This document shows positions 1-5,134 of a DNA stretch of 5,486 nucleotides, in pieces (the stretch's first letter is position 1; each line of letters opens with the position of its first letter). Location: positions 1 through 5,486 of the forward strand of contig NZ_CALADU010000194.1 of assembly GCF_937890665.1 (NCBI RefSeq), given 5' to 3'. The notes under the pieces are model-generated. The model saw only the letters and a list, made by a program, of their open reading frames with translations, was not told where the DNA came from and searched no databases. The position numbers and the translations under genes are program-made. Origin of the DNA: an uncultured Subdoligranulum sp. GTDB taxonomy: Bacteria > Bacillota_A > Clostridia > Oscillospirales > Ruminococcaceae.

Positions 1-1253
1 TTCATCATTTTTTGCTTCAACGCTTGGCTGTACATGCCGTCCAGGATGGCATCGGTCAGGCGCTCTATTTTTTCGTTGATGGCTTGCAGCCGCGCGGTGG
101 CGGTGGCTGTGACGGTGTCGGCCAGTGAGACCGCCTCCCGCTCGGCGCGCTGCACGGTGTCGATCAGAGCGTCCCGGTTGGTGGCGTCCTGTAGCGCCTG
201 TTTGACCGCACGGGCCACCGACCGGTCCAGCACGTCCACCCGCACGTTACGCATGCTGCAGGTGTGGCTGCGGTGCTTGGCGCCGCACTCATAATACTGG
301 TAGAGTGAGCCGTCATTAGATGAGTGTACCACCATAGCCGCGCCGCAGGCGCCGCAGTAGACCTTGCCGGTCAGCAGGTAGGTCTGCTTCGCGCTGGCCC
401 GGCCGCCGCAGCCCCGGCGGGATTCCCGGCGGCGCTGGACGATCTCCCACACATCCCGCTCCACGATGGGCGGAACGCCGCCCTCCAGGCGGATCGCGTC
501 CGGCCGGGGATTGGTGTGGGCGTTCCAGCCGCCGCGGCCGCCTTTCTGGGCGCGGCCATAGGTGAGCACCCCGATGTATTTTTCGTTGCGCAGAATTTCC
601 AACAACGAATTTTTGGTAAAGGCTCTCCCCCGCTTGGTGTGCAGCCCCCGGCGGTTCAGCTCATCCACGATATGGCCGTACCCCTCGCCGTCGGCAGCCA
701 TGCGATAGATCAGGCGCACCGTTTCGGCTTCCCCTTCATTTATAATATAGTGTTTGTCCGGGCCGATATCGTACCCCAGCGCCGGGCGGCCGCCGGTGGT
801 CTTTCCGTTGCGGGCACGGTAGCGCAGCGCCTCGATGGTCTTTTGCCGGGTTACCAGCACCTGGGCGTGGTTCATCATGGCGGTGGCGGCCTCACCGATA
901 AACACGGCGGGGTCCTGCAGGTCGCCGCCAAGCTGCGGCTGCGTGACCGAGGCCACACCCGCCCCGAAGGATGCCACCAGCCGCCGGAACTCGAACCACT
1001 CGGTAAACTCACGGAACATGCGGCTCTGGTCGTAGATCACCACAAGGTCTGCGCCGCCCATGGACAGGTGCCGGATGCAAGCCTGATACCCGGCGCGGGT
1101 GTCCTTCATGCCGCTGACGGCTTCGTCGGCGAACACGCGGCCGACCTGGTAGCCGTGCTGCTTGCACCAGGCTTTGCAGGCGGCCACCTGCACGTCGATG
1201 GTGACCGGGTTCTGGTGATCGGTGGAATAGCGGGCCAAAATATCTGCTGTCAT
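1..1253 (-). CDS. Large serine recombinase (integrase), C-terminal end cut by window edge
   Basis: This is a site-specific DNA recombinase that would cut and rejoin attachment sites through a 5'-phosphoserine link to integrate and excise the element. 417 codons are visible and the frame is still open at the left edge, so the stop lies outside. The N-terminal resolvase domain (about residues 1-135) has the A-R-Y-S motif with candidate nucleophile Ser10 and Arg8, a Q-x4-I-D-x-Q segment (14-22), and S77-R78-x-x-R81 for the second arginine motif. The recombinase domain follows (about 155-275), with G-G-R-P-A-L-G-Y at its start. A zinc ribbon has C300-x2-C303 and C323-x8-C332, and a helical, coiled-coil-like stretch runs from about 360 to the edge. 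The ATG at 1253 has GGAGGTG six bases upstream. Usual family length is about 450-600 residues, so only the tail is missing. GC content is clearly higher than in the neighbouring exonuclease gene. Family assignment is firm; the attachment site is not identified. Confidence 0.95.
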   Translation of the reverse strand, partial: MTADILARYSTDHQNPVTIDVQVAACKAWCKQHGYQVGRVFADEAVSGMKDTRAGYQACIRHLSMGGADLVVIYDQSRMFREFTEWFEFRRLVASFGAGVASVTQPQLGGDLQDPAVFIGEAATAMMNHAQVLVTRQKTIEALRYRARNGKTTGGRPALGYDIGPDKHYIINEGEAETVRLIYRMAADGEGYGHIVDELNRRGLHTKRGRAFTKNSLLEILRNEKYIGVLTYGRAQKGGRGGWNAHTNPRPDAIRLEGGVPPIVERDVWEIVQRRRESRRGCGGRASAKQTYLLTGKVYCGACGAAMVVHSSNDGSLYQYYECGAKHRSHTCSMRNVRVDVLDRSVARAVKQALQDATNRDALIDTVQRAEREAVSLADTVTATATARLQAINEKIERLTDAILDGMYSQALKQKMM

Positions 1254-1399: not shown

Positions 1400-2611
1400 T
1401 TATTGATGCGTTGGCGCCATTTGCAGAACCTGCTGCAAAAGGGATATATATTCAGATTCGTCAATAATCTTGACCTTTTTCCCGTTTTGAGACAAGGTAA
1501 CGGCTTTGCTGTATTTTCGTTCTACTGCCCAATCGGGAAGGTTTGTCAGCGAACCCTTAACGAGATAATCAGTGTTTCCATTGACATTATCCCGCAAGTT
1601 GGCGCCGATTTTCTCAAGAGAGGATTCGAGTTTTTCCCGGTTCTGCTGAAAATCGCCAGTAAAAACAAAATTTTTATTGAGCATAGGGGACCACCCAAAG
1701 CGTGCAGCTTTTTCGGCCCTTGCCTGCTCACGTGCCGCCCGGCGGGCTTCGAGTTCTTTACGGTAAGCATCCATGATTTCGAAACGGCAACGCTCAAATA
1801 GTTGTGCTGTCAATACAACGTCATCATCTGCTCTGTGTGTTTGGGTACTGGAAATTCCAAGATCTTTAACCAAATTGGCCAGCTTGTAAGTACTCCGGCC
1901 AGGGAAAGCCTTTTTTGAAAGTGTAAGCGTATCTAAATACTGGACATTTAAGGATGCTGCAGAATCTGGAATTGCGTAGCCAATCATATCCAAATCAAAA
2001 GTTACGTTGTGACCAACGATAAGTACATCCTGCACCATTCGGCACACATCCGGCCATATCTGTGCAAAGGTGGGGGCCGTGGCAACGTCGGTATCCGTAA
2101 TATGGTTTACACGTGAAGCTGCAGGAGGAATCGGGATTTGCGGATTGACCAGCGTAGCATAGTGATCTGTCTGTACACCATTCTCATAACGCGCCAAGCT
2201 AATCTCAACGATTCTGTCGTTTTTGCGGTCGAGGCCGGTCGTTTCGGTATCGAGTACCACGTAAGAACAGATACCCTCCAGGTTTTTGGCCGTAGGCGAA
2301 ACAAAGGAACTACGTAAGATTTTGCAGCCTGCCCCCGATTCAATACTTGGACTGGGAATAGAAGTATGGGAAGTGTAGGCAGGTGCAGGTAAAGAATGAT
2401 CTTCCGGAAGGTCATTTTTGGAGGGGCGCGTCGTTTTGTGAAAGGTCACAAGGTGGAATAGTGCTATGCAAACATCAACGAACCATCCAATCCCAAATAG
2501 GCCAAATGTGCAAAGGTATAAAATGCCGGTTCCGATTTTGTGGTCCAAAAAGCGTTGAATGCCGGTCCATCCCAAAAGCAGGGTCAGAATAAACCGAATC
2601 GTCGGGTTCAT
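1400..2611 (-). CDS. TM2 domain / DEDDh 3'-5' exonuclease / BRCT fusion protein
   Basis: This is a predicted membrane-anchored 3'-5' exonuclease of 403 residues. Residues 1-55 form a TM2 domain: two hydrophobic helices (about 4-17 and 27-52) joined by a short Q-R-F turn, with G-W-F-V-D in the second. A polar linker (about 56-115) follows. The DnaQ-like domain (about 116-275) keeps all the metal-binding motifs: D121-T-E123-T-T-G, N202-x3-D206, and H259-R-A-x2-D264. A charged helix (281-305) leads to a BRCT domain (about 309-395) with F-V-F-T-G-D near its start, as in DNA ligase and exonuclease BRCT modules. ATG at 2611 is preferred because GGAG lies eight bases upstream; the GTG at 2620, which overlaps the ImmA stop, has no such spacing. 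The gene follows the metallopeptidase in the repressor operon and so should be expressed in the lysogen. Its GC is about 45%, lower than its neighbours. Biological role is unknown; defence against entering DNA is an inference from anchor, nuclease and position. Confidence 0.88.
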   Translation of the reverse strand: MNPTIRFILTLLLGWTGIQRFLDHKIGTGILYLCTFGLFGIGWFVDVCIALFHLVTFHKTTRPSKNDLPEDHSLPAPAYTSHTSIPSPSIESGAGCKILRSSFVSPTAKNLEGICSYVVLDTETTGLDRKNDRIVEISLARYENGVQTDHYATLVNPQIPIPPAASRVNHITDTDVATAPTFAQIWPDVCRMVQDVLIVGHNVTFDLDMIGYAIPDSAASLNVQYLDTLTLSKKAFPGRSTYKLANLVKDLGISSTQTHRADDDVVLTAQLFERCRFEIMDAYRKELEARRAAREQARAEKAARFGWSPMLNKNFVFTGDFQQNREKLESSLEKIGANLRDNVNGNTDYLVKGSLTNLPDWAVERKYSKAVTLSQNGKKVKIIDESEYISLLQQVLQMAPTHQ

Positions 2612-2616
2612 GTGTA

Positions 2617-3060
2617 TCACTCCATCTTTGATACGTCTTTATAATAGTAGTACGCCCGGCGGACGTATTCCTCGGTAGTGTTCAGCAGTTCGGCGATCTC
2701 CCAGGCGTCGCGCCCCTCACGAAGCAAGCGAAACAACGTGCGCCTGGGGATGGCTCTTTTTATGTACCAGCGGTCGGCGCGCACCTCGTGGCGCTCGGCC
2801 ACATCGTAAGACGTTCCACGGGTATAGAAGCCACCATACAGGCAGTGCCCCAGTTCGTGGCCCAGGCGGGCTTGCTCCTCGGCACGGGTCATGGCATGGG
2901 TGTTGTCCAGGCCGACCACGCCGCTACTACCGACGGCCAGCGCCAAGCTACGCACTTCCGGCAGTGGCATGTGGATGACCGGCACCCCAGCAGCTTCGGC
3001 CACTTGGTAAAAATCAGTCGTCTTTGGGGCGGATGTTATGCTCGGCGATAAATTTGGCAA
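2617..3060 (-). CDS. ImmA/IrrE-family metallopeptidase
   Basis: This is a predicted zinc metallopeptidase of 147 residues. The H68-E-L-G-H72 motif supplies two zinc ligands and the catalytic Glu69, and H-E92-V-R-A-D supplies the likely third ligand at Glu92. ImmA of ICEBs1 and related proteins cleave the partner Xre repressor to induce the element, and the gene directly upstream here is such a repressor. The C-terminal part (about 117-140) reads like a small helix-turn-helix (W-E-I-A-E-L-L-N-T-T-E-E-Y-V) followed by a run of tyrosines. The start is TTG at 3060, giving a 47-bp overlap with the repressor gene and a GAGGAAG about ten bases upstream. Later in-frame starts would cut the conserved N-terminal helix. 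No signal peptide or membrane segment is seen, so it should act in the cytoplasm. The overlap implies translational coupling to the repressor. Confidence 0.9.
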   Translation of the reverse strand: MPNLSPSITSAPKTTDFYQVAEAAGVPVIHMPLPEVRSLALAVGSSGVVGLDNTHAMTRAEEQARLGHELGHCLYGGFYTRGTSYDVAERHEVRADRWYIKRAIPRRTLFRLLREGRDAWEIAELLNTTEEYVRRAYYYYKDVSKME

Positions 3061-3349
3061 ATCGCTTCACTTCCTCGTACTGGGCGTCGGTGACCGGCGC
3101 ACCGTCAAATAGCGCAAATTTGATATCTTCATCAGAAACCTTGCCCGCAGGGGCAGGGTCTTTTTTATTTCCCAACAGATAATCCACACTGCAGCCAAAA
3201 TACTCCCCCAATTTCAAAAGCGTCTCGAAATCAGGTTCACGCTTGCCCGCCTCATAGTTGCTATAGGCCTGGCGGGAGATTCCGAGGTAATCGGCAACTT
3301 CCTGCTGCGTTTTGTGAATTGCTTTTCGCGCGTTCAGCAAATTCAACAT
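3014..3349 (-). CDS. Xre/Cro-CI family repressor, probable lysogeny regulator
   Basis: This is a DNA-binding repressor of 111 residues. An HTH_3 domain occupies residues 4-60, with the helix-turn-helix at about 15-35 (Q-Q-E-V-A-D-Y-L-G-I-S-R-Q-A-Y-S-N-Y-E-G). A short linker (61-72) and a C-terminal helical part (about 74-105) follow. There is no LexA/S24 self-cleavage domain. That fits derepression by the neighbouring ImmA-type protease rather than RecA-stimulated autocleavage. The ATG at 3349 has AAAGGAGG eight bases upstream. An open frame runs further upstream to 3508, but it crosses the promoter and operator region and has no binding site, so it is not used. The first gene of a leftward operon, it is divergent from the Cro-like gene and is likely autoregulated through a palindrome inside its own promoter. 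Confidence 0.92.
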   Translation of the reverse strand: MLNLLNARKAIHKTQQEVADYLGISRQAYSNYEAGKREPDFETLLKLGEYFGCSVDYLLGNKKDPAPAGKVSDEDIKFALFDGAPVTDAQYEEVKRFAKFIAEHNIRPKDD

Positions 3350-3371: not shown

Positions 3372-3400
3372 AGTATAGCAACTATTTGTTGCGTTTGCAA
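3372..3400 (-). promoter_or_regulatory. Promoter of the repressor operon
   Basis: Read leftward, TTGCAA (3400-3395) and TATACT (3377-3372) are separated by 17 bp. The start point would be near 3365, leaving a very short leader that begins almost at the AAAGGAGG ribosome binding site. The perfect palindrome at 3378-3392 fills most of the spacer, so repressor binding there would shut its own promoter. The -35 box matches four of six consensus bases, so the promoter is probably weak to moderate. Confidence 0.6.
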
Positions 3401-3497
3401 TAGTAGCAACAAATCGTAGCGGAATATTTGTATAAACCGCCGAAATTGCAACGAAACGTTGACATAATGAGATTTTGGGCCTATACTAAAGGCAACG
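3376..3497. promoter_or_regulatory. Operator array with GCAAC half-sites in the switch region
   Basis: GCAAC or its complement recurs through the divergent region. A perfect palindrome GCAAC-5-GTTGC lies at 3378-3392. A second copy of GCAACAAAT at 3406-3414 is an exact nine-base inverted match of 3384-3392. A palindrome CAACG-3-CGTTG lies at 3449-3461 and overlaps the Pcro -35 box. GCAACGATA lies at 3493-3501 near the Pcro start point, so the last site slightly overruns the listed end. Placement on both promoters fits binding by the Xre repressor and the Cro-like protein. Which protein prefers which site cannot be told from sequence. Confidence 0.6.
3459..3487 (+). promoter_or_regulatory. Early rightward promoter (Pcro)
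   Basis: TTGACA (3459-3464), a perfect -35 box, is followed by a 17-bp spacer and TATACT (3482-3487), five of six for the -10. The start point should be near 3494. The -35 box overlaps the palindrome at 3449-3461, so repressor binding there would exclude RNA polymerase. It is the strongest promoter seen in the window, and no terminator is visible between it and the right edge, so it probably drives the whole rightward early cluster. Confidence 0.8.
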
Positions 3498-3506
3498 ATA
3501 TGTAGC

Positions 3507-3516
3507 AAGGAGGTGA
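3507..3516 (+). promoter_or_regulatory. Ribosome binding site fixing the TTG start of the Cro-like gene
   Basis: AAGGAGGTGA is fully complementary to the 16S 3' end and lies seven bases before the TTG at 3524. No ATG or GTG is placed as well, so this site decides the start. A strong binding site combined with a weak start codon may limit the amount of Cro-like protein. Confidence 0.8.
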
Positions 3517-3523
3517 GAGGAAC

Positions 3524-3742
3524 TTGAGGGAGTATCTGGTCGAGCTTCGCAATCGGAAGGGGCTATCGCAACAAGATGTGGCGGACAAACTTGGAATCAC
3601 CCGTCAGTATTACCAGATGATCGAATCGGGAGAGCGTCAGAAGCATCTTGACCTTTCTTTGGCTGGTGGGTTGGCCGCACTGTTGGGGGTGACCATCATG
3701 GACATCGAGCACTGTGAGAACCAACTTCATTCTACCACCTGA
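3524..3742 (+). CDS. Small Cro-like Xre-family regulator
   Basis: This 72-residue protein consists almost entirely of one HTH_3 domain: the helix-turn-helix runs from about 15 to 37 (Q-Q-D-V-A-D-K-L-G-I-T-R-Q-Y-Y-Q-M-I-E-S-G-E-R), followed by two short helices. The domain starts at residue 2, so little can be missing at the N-terminus, which supports the TTG start. It is the first rightward gene after Pcro and is divergent from the larger Xre repressor, which is the Cro position in temperate phages. By analogy it would bind the shared GCAAC operators and lower repressor synthesis. It could instead activate early genes. The short C-terminal tail (about 61-72) has no recognisable function. Confidence 0.88.
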   Translation: MREYLVELRNRKGLSQQDVADKLGITRQYYQMIESGERQKHLDLSLAGGLAALLGVTIMDIEHCENQLHSTT

Positions 3743-4566: not shown

Positions 4567-4814
4567 TGACTATAAAAAAGACAGCCGCCCCGGTGCTGGC
4601 ACACCGGAACGGCCAAAAAACAGAGCACTGGAAGTTGCTCACCCCTATTTTACCGCTGCTGCGCGCCGCCGTCAAGACTGCGGCGGTGACGCTGGGCATC
4701 TACATTCTGGCGGCGGTGGCTGCCCTCAACATTCCCGCGCTGGTCGGCGGGGTGCTGGTTCTCAACGCCCTGCTGGGCGCGTGGTTCGCGCTGGACGAGG
4801 AGGTGGCCACATGA
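4566..4814 (+). CDS. Small two-helix membrane protein, 82 aa
   Basis: The first 25 residues are basic and polar (I-K-K, H-R-N-G-Q-K). Two hydrophobic helices follow at about 36-53 (V-T-L-G-I-Y-I-L-A-A-V-A-A-L) and 57-76 (A-L-V-G-G-V-L-V-L-N-A-L-L-G-A-W-F), then a short acidic tail (D-E-E). By the positive-inside rule both ends might face the cytoplasm. ATG at 4566 has AAAGGAG seven bases upstream and is chosen over an earlier in-frame ATG at 4503, which lies inside the preceding gene and adds a non-membrane Gly-rich stretch. The 3' end overlaps the next gene by ATGA. A holin is unlikely from the early-region position. Function unknown. Confidence 0.75.
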   Translation: MTIKKTAAPVLAHRNGQKTEHWKLLTPILPLLRAAVKTAAVTLGIYILAAVAALNIPALVGGVLVLNALLGAWFALDEEVAT

Positions 4815-5134
4815 AAGCGCCTTGCGGAGCCTGCGCAACCTGTGAGCAGTGTCCCTACGATGATTGCACCTGGGACGGCGTGAGCGCGGAGGAATGGGCC
4901 GCGGCGAAAGACACGGATGCAGATGCCCGCCATGCTGTGGAAAGTAAACAAGCCGCCCAGCAGCGGGCCTGGTATGAGGCCAACCGGGAGAAGGTGGCCG
5001 CCCAGCAGCGGGCCTACCGGGAGGCCAACCGGGAGAAGGTGGCTGCCCAGCAGCGGGCCTGGTATGAGGCCAACCGGGAGAAGGTGGCCGAATACAATCG
5101 AAACTACTATGCCAAAAGAAAGAAGGCGAAGTAA
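4811..5134 (+). CDS. Cys-cluster protein with 15-residue tandem repeats, 107 aa
   Basis: The N-terminus holds five cysteines in 15 residues (C5-x2-C8-x2-C11-x2-C14-x4-C19), a possible metal-binding knot. After an acidic, Ala-rich linker (about 22-46) come four head-to-tail 15-residue units (48-107). The first three read A-A-Q-Q-R-A-W/Y-Y/R-E-A-N-R-E-K-V and the fourth is diverged and ends basic (A-K-R-K-K-A-K). The units are highly helical and charged and would form a long rod or coiled coil. Similar Y-x-E-A-N-R-E-K repeats occur in phage and mobile-element proteins of unknown role. ATG at 4811 overlaps the preceding stop (ATGA) and has AGGAGGTGG four bases upstream. The basic repeats and Cys cluster suggest nucleic-acid binding, which is inference only. 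Confidence 0.8.
   Translation: MKAPCGACATCEQCPYDDCTWDGVSAEEWAAAKDTDADARHAVESKQAAQQRAWYEANREKVAAQQRAYREANREKVAAQQRAWYEANREKVAEYNRNYYAKRKKAK
4952..5131 (+). repeat. Four 45-bp tandem units encoding the 15-residue repeat
   Basis: The units are at 4952-4996, 4997-5041, 5042-5086 and 5087-5131. The first and third are nearly identical at the DNA level and the second differs mainly at the W-Y to Y-R codons. The fourth is diverged. The unit length is an exact multiple of three, so gain or loss of units keeps the frame, and near identity suggests recent expansion or copy-number change. Confidence 0.85.

Follow-up and report, generated by a model that had tools for sequence, protein, structure and literature searches.

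What does a predicted DNA exonuclease do when it is encoded between the repressor and the recombinase of a prophage-like element and begins with a membrane anchor? The question is raised by a stretch of 5,486 nucleotides from an uncultured Subdoligranulum sp. (contig NZ_CALADU010000194.1; the whole stretch is hereafter the window), which encodes a 403-residue protein made up of a TM2 domain, a DEDDh 3′-5′ exonuclease and a BRCT domain. Our answer, to which we give a probability of about one half, is that the protein acts in superinfection exclusion: an exonuclease that would be expressed in the lysogen, sit at the cytoplasmic face of the membrane and attack incoming DNA. The domains and their order, the intact catalytic residues, the position in a lysogeny module and the swapping of anchors among database proteins were all computed directly. 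An exonuclease made in the lysogen at the membrane, with anchors that are replaced while the enzyme is kept, would be best explained as a nuclease waiting where foreign DNA enters.

Domains of the protein and position of its gene

All three domains score above the curated cut-offs of Pfam-A: TM2 at residues 2-47 (43.0 bits; cut-off 27.9), the RNase_T exonuclease at residues 118-272 (101.4 bits; cut-off 24) and BRCT at residues 309-370 (28.1 bits; cut-off 21.3). An earlier note on this DNA had read the same three domains from the sequence and had named D121, E123, D206, H259 and D264 as catalytic residues. Domains, protein length and residue numbering are borne out, and none of the five residues varies among the 54 aligned proteins, of which the window's is one. 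By fold and catalytic residues the protein is a member of the DEDDh (RNase_T, DnaQ-like) exonuclease family, with predicted activity on DNA. The AlphaFold2 model, made with 54 sequences (mean predicted local distance difference test score, pLDDT, 90.7), opens with two helices (Table 1), passes through a low-confidence stretch (residues 58-84) into a DnaQ-type exonuclease and places BRCT last, a single 45-residue helix (261-305) lying between exonuclease fold and BRCT. With a profile score above cut-off, two helices and a short linker, the N-terminal region is a TM2 domain.

Compared with solved chains, the family profile lies nearest the PolC exonuclease domain (2p1j), with DinG next, then PolC and DnaQ. 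Fold matches in the Protein Data Bank are led by DinG, DnaQ and PolC, with ExoX, RNase T and TREX1 lower (mouse TREX1 is at rank 37, with 20% identity over the aligned part), and include single-stranded DNA complexes of RNase T, DinG and ExoI. The enzymes of closest structure are exonucleases of the proofreading type, and the best match in PHROGs is phrog_192, named ‘DNA polymerase exonuclease subunit’ (181.6 bits), which aligns with residues 117-396 over positions 108-368 of 397: the match covers both domains, in the same order of exonuclease then BRCT. Both facts favour an element repair or maintenance exonuclease that would trim or proofread ends in prophage integration, excision or replication, its anchor placing it near membrane-bound replication sites. 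The gene also often adjoins an integrase, as such a role might lead one to expect. We nonetheless think this role unlikely: the linked integrases are of unrelated serine and tyrosine types, so no common recombination chemistry is served; in linked loci the gene stands with the repressor; the anchors are replaced while the core is kept; and DrmB/DrmC and SngB/SngC genes lie beside some relatives. A pure lytic replication gene is likewise unlikely by gene position, though one relative (L060) resembles, by eye, a phage region outside lysogeny control. The exonuclease is matched too by the PADLOC candidate PDC-S48 (E 4.1e-42; residues 116-275 against positions 5-166 of 411). This match is confined to the exonuclease part and the family is a candidate only; its name was not found in a literature search that also required a second term.

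The BRCT profile matches the BRCT chains of LigA and, weakly, RFC1 (E 0.005 and 0.009). Among 49 ungapped sequences T318, G319, R325 and K366 are kept in 45, 49, 47 and 48, and the threonine, glycine and arginine have aligned counterparts in the RFC1 BRCT, where they and a lysine hold a 5′-phosphate. The conserved residues and their RFC1 equivalents make it reasonable, and no more than reasonable, to suppose that the domain binds DNA ends.

On the minus strand of the window the genes follow in the order Xre repressor, ImmA/M78-like gene, exonuclease gene and large serine recombinase: this is the end of a prophage-like element that controls lysogeny. The earlier note had placed the gene in a lysogenic operon, and its gene order is correct; the strand it had left unstated. 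We take the recombinase to be of the large serine type from familiar sequence features, and, having seeded our in-house recombinase hidden Markov model (HMM), it gains no independent proof of its class from that HMM. Five bases separate the stop codon of the ImmA-like gene from the ATG of the exonuclease gene, with GGAG immediately 5′ of the stop, and the two genes are likely to be translationally coupled. GC content is 46.6% in the exonuclease gene, 49.7% in the repressor, 59.5% in the ImmA-like gene and 64.3% in the recombinase; a value lower than in most neighbours would suit an acquired cargo gene, but the repressor comes close to it.

The tight coupling to the ImmA-like gene, and the presence of an Xre or ImmA gene immediately upstream at other loci, could be taken to mean that the nuclease regulates the lysogeny switch by removing a messenger or small nucleic acids which would otherwise set off ImmA or repressor cleavage. 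This we judge very improbable, for the gene also occurs with repressors that look by eye to be of LexA/S24 type, with CI plus ImmA, or where no repressor was found, and such a role would leave both BRCT and the membrane anchor unexplained.

In the five closest loci (the window and L001-L004) a same-strand integrase or recombinase lies downstream of the gene in every case, serine in the window, L001 and L002 and tyrosine in L003 and L004. Two genes intervene in L001, whereas in the other four loci it follows immediately. A repressor or ImmA gene lies directly upstream on the same strand in four (the window, L001, L002 and L004), while the L003 contig begins inside the gene, so that the repressor side is cut and the gene was scored as unanchored. 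The two additional genes of L001 encode a DUF898 membrane protein and (10697-12061, plus strand) a protein with an FtsK_gamma DNA-binding domain, an Mrr_cat nuclease and two predicted C-terminal transmembrane (TM) segments, with the serine recombinase next. A second nuclease with predicted TM segments in the same lysogeny operon lends additional support to exclusion.

To count positions we called a lysogeny module wherever a same-strand repressor or ImmA gene lay within 1.2 kb or a recombinase within 3 kb. The count covers 114 DEDDh open reading frames (ORFs) other than PolC, 19 duplicate loci and all ORFs above 700 residues (mainly PolC) having been dropped beforehand; of 203 confirmed viral loci the best 80 were taken, with near-identical viral contigs kept in the first count and collapsed in the repeat. 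Seeds for the repressor, ImmA and recombinase HMMs had been chosen by eye from genes of certain loci that are also in the count, among the anchored ones the window, L001, L002, L053, L055 and L059, leaving L070 and L112 free of seeds. In Fisher tests that ignore relatedness, genes with an N-terminal TM segment lie in lysogeny modules in 8 of 8 cases against 26 of 106 without (p = 3.3e-5), and genes with BRCT in 23 of 34 against 11 of 80 (p = 2.7e-8). With the window's family excluded, the TM figures are 5/5 against 24/104 (p = 0.001), and among genes that lack BRCT they are 2/2 against 9/78 (p = 0.017).

Collapse at 90% identity (102 ORFs) gives 8/8 against 24/94 for TM (p = 4.8e-5) and 22/32 against 10/70 for BRCT (p = 9e-8); at 60% the values are 7/7 against 22/78 (p = 0.0003) and 19/28 against 10/57 (p = 8e-6). 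When the seed loci were also removed, TM stood at 2/2 against 12/82 (p = 0.026) and BRCT at 7/17 against 7/67 (p = 0.006) after 90% collapse (84 ORFs), and at 2/2 against 10/66 (p = 0.03) and 5/14 against 7/54 (p = 0.11) after 60% collapse. The direction of the links of anchor and BRCT to lysogeny modules is constant in all tests; their strength depends on the loci read beforehand. The earlier note had let its exclusion idea hang on linkage to mobile elements, and this holds for all eight anchored genes, only two of whose loci are free of HMM seeds.

Exchange of membrane anchors on conserved cores

How general is the anchor? We surveyed 81 proteins, among them that of the window (the first 81 of 120 listed out of 221, with a few short, possibly fragmentary sequences), calling TM segments from Kyte-Doolittle windows without a trained predictor, by which at least one likely case (P0064) was missed. 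A hydrophobic helix precedes the exonuclease at the N-terminus of 66 of the 81; nine have an extension without a helix and six have no extension. Pfam TM2 is present in 11 of the 54 aligned proteins, or 10 of 53 without the window's own, and DUF4236 in one, while two other proteins start with a CxxC...CxxC ribbon-like segment ahead of the hydrophobic part. TM2 proteins are divided between those with BRCT (6 of 11) and those without (P0043, P0044, P0046, P0078 and P0079).

TM2 is thus not confined to one protein, and the one-off fusion that the earlier note had considered is ruled out, most of the examined proteins having a predicted anchor. An assembly artefact joining TM2 to the exonuclease is ruled out by a full-length locus, 69% identical, in another genome with the same domains and gene order; P0002 (16 member sequences), 85-86% identical to the window protein along its length, also counts against it.

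Of particular interest is the relationship between anchors and cores. When the membrane segments of all 75 extended proteins are clustered by BLAST, they fall into 21 groups, of which one is loose and has 34 members, and the kinds of anchor comprise TM2, several unrelated helix hairpins, a zinc-ribbon-like segment plus TM, and DUF4236 plus TM. The same core may carry different kinds: P0001 and P0003 have unrelated anchors on cores that are 97.6% identical (288 residues), identity climbing from about 20% to at least 87% around residues 100-120; the cores of P0004 (TM2) and P0007 (another hairpin) are 96.9% identical, and those of P0054 and P0056 95.8%. Among pairs (which are not independent) with cores at least 70% identical, the membrane segments lack BLAST similarity in 45 of 102; at 90% or more this is so in 6 of 22, and at 95% or more in 3 of 10. 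It seems that selection has acted both for membrane location and for changing the way in which it is achieved.

Three further arrangements were seen. P0008 (487 residues) has TM2, exonuclease and BRCT, the last two parted by an additional segment that by eye we take to resemble TerB. In P0045 a DUF4236 domain is fused to the exonuclease, and at L007 (7437-7907) a separate gene that by eye resembles DUF4236 plus TM lies just 3′ of an unanchored exonuclease-BRCT gene.

Unanchored relatives, occurrence and other features

The slot beside the repressor is also filled by genes for unanchored proteins. Streptococcus suis Javan549 has CI, then the exonuclease gene, a hypothetical gene and the integrase; Staphylococcus aureus phi2958PVL has repressor, exonuclease-BRCT gene, further genes and integrase; and in Streptococcus pneumoniae IPP58 the exonuclease-BRCT gene immediately precedes the integrase. 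These three share the exonuclease-BRCT architecture (a likeness that does not come from the PHROGs match) and the slot between repressor and integrase; unlike the window protein, their exonuclease domain begins at residue 1-3, with no predicted anchor. In Campylobacter CJIE4-2 the gene lies one gene past the repressor, with a KAP NTPase beyond, and in Moraxella Mcat9 a repressor-like gene (by eye) lies directly upstream. None of the five proteins has a predicted N-terminal TM segment (0/5); four start at the exonuclease, and that of CJIE4-2 has a 52-residue extension. The phi2958PVL gene (NC_011344.1, 3381-4301) goes under ‘DNA ligase’ in the reference record, a label that its BRCT domain may have prompted.

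Away from the slot, 11 of 34 distinct BRCT-bearing loci failed the lysogeny rule. Two of these (L068 and L069) have a repressor upstream that the HMMs missed, and of the remaining nine five (L071, L062, L063, L154 and L155) have PADLOC matches to defence proteins nearby (Table 1). Beyond anchor swapping, these defence genes near unanchored relatives lend further support to exclusion.

Two of the neighbourhoods deserve description. At L062 (6003-11012) homologues of Shango SngB and SngC adjoin the exonuclease-BRCT gene and a small protein with a conserved C-terminal FGCC cysteine cluster; no SngA-like gene was recognised by eye among the listed neighbours. At L063 (1179-2545) caspase-domain and weakly ThsB-like TIR genes stand beside the exonuclease-BRCT gene, near pieces of a serine recombinase, and together the pair could form a system of Thoeris type in which the caspase is the effector. 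The small FGCC protein recurs beside DEDDh genes (L056:2720-3244, L057:5728-6192, L052:7025-7549, L061:7642-8070 and L062:6003-6518), and at L051 (2950-4425) motif and exonuclease share one ORF. The L057 protein, the one FGCC protein run against Pfam, gave no match at E 0.01.

The occurrence of exonuclease-BRCT genes is patchy, which we count in favour of cargo and exclusion. A scan of named genomes returned four loci, three from Gemmiger metagenome-assembled genomes and one from that of an uncultured Clostridia, which makes a gut clostridium the likely host; within one genus a relative at 54-69% identity was present in 3 of 35 genomes, all three from the first scan; and among 396 genomes of the family there were seven matches, one close (69%), five at 27-30% identity and one PolC. 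Scans of viral contigs with P0001 and P0050 found no relatives, and 80% coverage of the protein in one place was reached in none of 204 matching phage records and none of 1009 matching plasmid records.

The remaining features of the window are collected in Table 1. For the repressor a longer frame from TTG at 3508 is also in the ORF list. The promoter consensus scan gave 6 sites against 3.2 expected in shuffled sequences. A promoter-like site (10/12, with TG preceding the second hexamer) lies between the recombinase and exonuclease genes on the plus strand and is followed about 50 bases on by a terminator-like hairpin of 14 pairs; reading against both genes, the pair (1276-1390) marks a possible small RNA. 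At 4811-5131 (plus strand) an ORF with the repeated segment AWYEANREKVAAQQR has a weak match (29.7 bits) to a phage HNH endonuclease family.

Table 1. Features of the window and genes near unanchored relatives; residues are those of the 403-residue protein.
Locus	Feature	Position	Strand	Evidence
Window	TM2-DEDDh exonuclease-BRCT gene, 403 residues	1400..2611	minus	ATG at 2611, stop 1400-1402
Window	Predicted transmembrane helix hairpin, residues 3-57	2441..2605	minus	Pfam TM2; AlphaFold2 helices 3-22 and 26-57
Window	DEDDh 3′-5′ exonuclease domain, residues 118-272	1796..2260	minus	RNase_T; PolC, DinG and DnaQ nearest
Window	BRCT domain, residues 308-397	1421..1690	minus	Pfam BRCT; profile matches; fold in model
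Window	ImmA/IrrE-like (M78) metallopeptidase	2617..3060	minus	phrog_87 ‘metallo-protease’ 47 bits; PF06114 16.7 bits, weak, below cut-off 22
Window	Xre/CI-like repressor	3014..3349	minus	HTH_3 65.6 bits; phrog_8 80.5 bits; ATG start chosen by inspection
Window	Large serine recombinase, C-terminus cut by window edge	1..1253	minus	Open frame 1-1253, start 1253
Window	Divergent Cro-like Xre protein	3524..3742	plus	HTH_3 51.9 bits
Window	ImmA-like stop (2617-2619) and GGAG (2620-2623) ahead of exonuclease ATG (2609-2611)	2609..2623	minus	Sequence reading
Window	Promoter-like site toward repressor, ImmA-like gene and exonuclease	3372..3400	minus	Consensus scan only, 9/12 matches
Window	Divergent promoter-like site toward Cro-like gene	3459..3487	plus	Consensus scan only, 11/12 matches
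L071	DrmB, DrmC and Vsr near unanchored exonuclease-BRCT			PADLOC
L062	SngB and SngC near unanchored exonuclease-BRCT			PADLOC
L063	Caspase-domain gene and weak/borderline TIR/ThsB match			
L154	Strong ThsB-type TIR, about 3 kb off			PADLOC
L155	PD-T4-7 about 3 kb off; candidate matches in adjacent helicase gene			PADLOC
L077	Type II DNA methyltransferase nearby			

Comparison with known systems and proposed mechanism

Among eukaryotic proteins TREX1 is a membrane-fixed DEDDh DNA exonuclease that limits stray DNA; its anchor is C-terminal and it is not known to have a BRCT. The window protein shares the DEDDh class and the 20% identity given above, with its anchor at the N-terminus. Comparable in setting are the lactococcal Sie proteins and Ltp of TP-J34, a protein of the same kind with a membrane or hydrophobic N-terminus and a gene in the lysogeny module; neither Sie nor Ltp is known to be a nuclease, and injection of DNA is blocked without its being degraded. 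The Sie proteins, membrane proteins or proteins with a hydrophobic N-terminus, are encoded in the lysogeny module and expressed in lysogens, which indicates that phages keep membrane exclusion genes there (PMC6127208). The window gene, like those of L001, L002 and L004, has this same location, in the lysogeny module on the repressor strand; its expression in the lysogen is predicted from the promoter-like site and tight spacing only.

The closest parallel is SNIPE, an anti-phage nuclease (DUF4041 plus GIY-YIG) that its N-terminal region holds at the cytoplasmic membrane and that cuts phage DNA at injection; one TM segment is predicted in 59% of its homologues and two in 7%, the N-terminal region is highly variable where the nuclease is conserved, and its authors suggest that this region could be a phage-specificity adapter (PMC13190303). 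Our family has a like, though only predicted, N-terminal tether that is likewise variable, with TM in most of the surveyed proteins and unrelated anchors on near-identical cores. It differs in its DEDDh exonuclease and BRCT and in its place in a prophage lysogeny module, and cutting at injection is established for SNIPE alone. Membership of SNIPE is ruled out, no DUF4041 or GIY-YIG being present among Pfam matches at E 0.01. That a tethered-nuclease strategy works, with the same signature, nevertheless offers an analogy for how an exonuclease-BRCT protein might act. The diDNases of Gram-positive genomic islands are DEDD-superfamily nucleases on mobile elements near defence systems; they are NrnC homologues of the DEDDy class, specific for dinucleotides, and BRCT does not occur in the main text of the paper (PMC11706625). 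A diDNase of NrnC type is ruled out by the invariant H259. The window protein would be a variant of the membrane-tethered kind of anti-phage nuclease. The earlier note called it possibly undescribed, and within the literature searched, which took in few subscription papers and, of bioRxiv, only what is in PubMed Central, this holds: the searches turned up no exonuclease of prophage immunity described as membrane-anchored or as carrying BRCT.

The mechanism that we infer brings together lysogen expression, membrane topology, a DNA-end substrate and phage exclusion. The gene would be cargo of the prophage lysogeny operon, expressed from the repressor transcript in the lysogen. Its two-helix N-terminal hairpin would lie in the cytoplasmic membrane with exonuclease and BRCT on the cytoplasmic side: two helices put both ends of the protein on one side, and basic residues after the hairpin weakly favour the cytoplasm. 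BRCT would bind DNA ends, probably 5′-phosphorylated as for BRCTs of LigA/RFC1 type, and load the DEDDh active site, which would digest the linear DNA that a phage or another element brings in when this emerges at the membrane; the circular host chromosome, with few free ends there, would be spared. Anchor swaps by recombination would alter the membrane site or the neighbouring entry protein, and hence the invaders stopped.

Identical anatomy would serve a general barrier to DNA uptake by conjugation or transformation, in which the tethered nuclease would degrade single-stranded DNA crossing the membrane and so shield the prophage from competing elements; the single-stranded DNA complexes of RNase T, DinG and ExoI among the fold matches agree with it, and no finding is contrary to it, linkage to conjugation genes not having been searched for. 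We hold such a barrier to be improbable, ranking it lower only because the known membrane exclusion genes of lysogeny modules act on phages (PMC6127208).

Several observations weigh against phage exclusion at the membrane. Unanchored genes in the same slot, as in the S. aureus and S. pneumoniae phages, show that the membrane is not needed for the job of the core there; the N-terminal extension of L004 has no predicted TM segment; and five of the 11 TM2 proteins lack BRCT, which must be dispensable in them. The effect of the anchor on gene position is not significant among BRCT-bearing genes considered by themselves (6/6 against 17/28, p = 0.15), the seed-free test rests on the two anchored loci L070 and L112, and the seed-free link between BRCT and lysogeny weakens as collapse is strengthened from 90% to 60% identity. 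The name of phrog_192 implies replication, although the position of the gene fits that name poorly. The proteins with swapped anchors are metagenome-derived and chimeric assembly is possible in single cases, though P0003 is found on 13 contigs. PADLOC neighbours were chosen by eye, without a background rate, and in the phage regions where the relatives of L078, L060 and Pasteurella Pmp8 lie no lysogeny or defence neighbour was recognised by eye, PADLOC not having been run there. The seed-free test, though weaker, still points in the direction of the first one, and anchor swapping is independent of that test.

A wider proposal is more tentative, and on balance we doubt it somewhat: that these proteins form a class of prophage immunity in which an exonuclease-BRCT ‘warhead’ is mounted on interchangeable anchors, each tuned to a different route of DNA entry. 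It would be an entry-site immune system, with an evolutionary origin separate from that of SNIPE, that distinguishes self from non-self by free DNA ends at the membrane, the same core occurring unanchored in lysogeny modules and beside defence genes.

If this were true, the repressor-adjacent exonuclease-BRCT genes of temperate phages, now filed under such names as ‘exonuclease’ and ‘DNA polymerase exonuclease subunit’ (one reference record has ‘DNA ligase’), would be immunity genes, and unrelated nucleases would have come to be tethered at the entry point of phage DNA on at least two separate occasions. Proteins that differ in anchor but hardly in core amount to natural domain swaps, and can show whether the anchor sets which phages are blocked.

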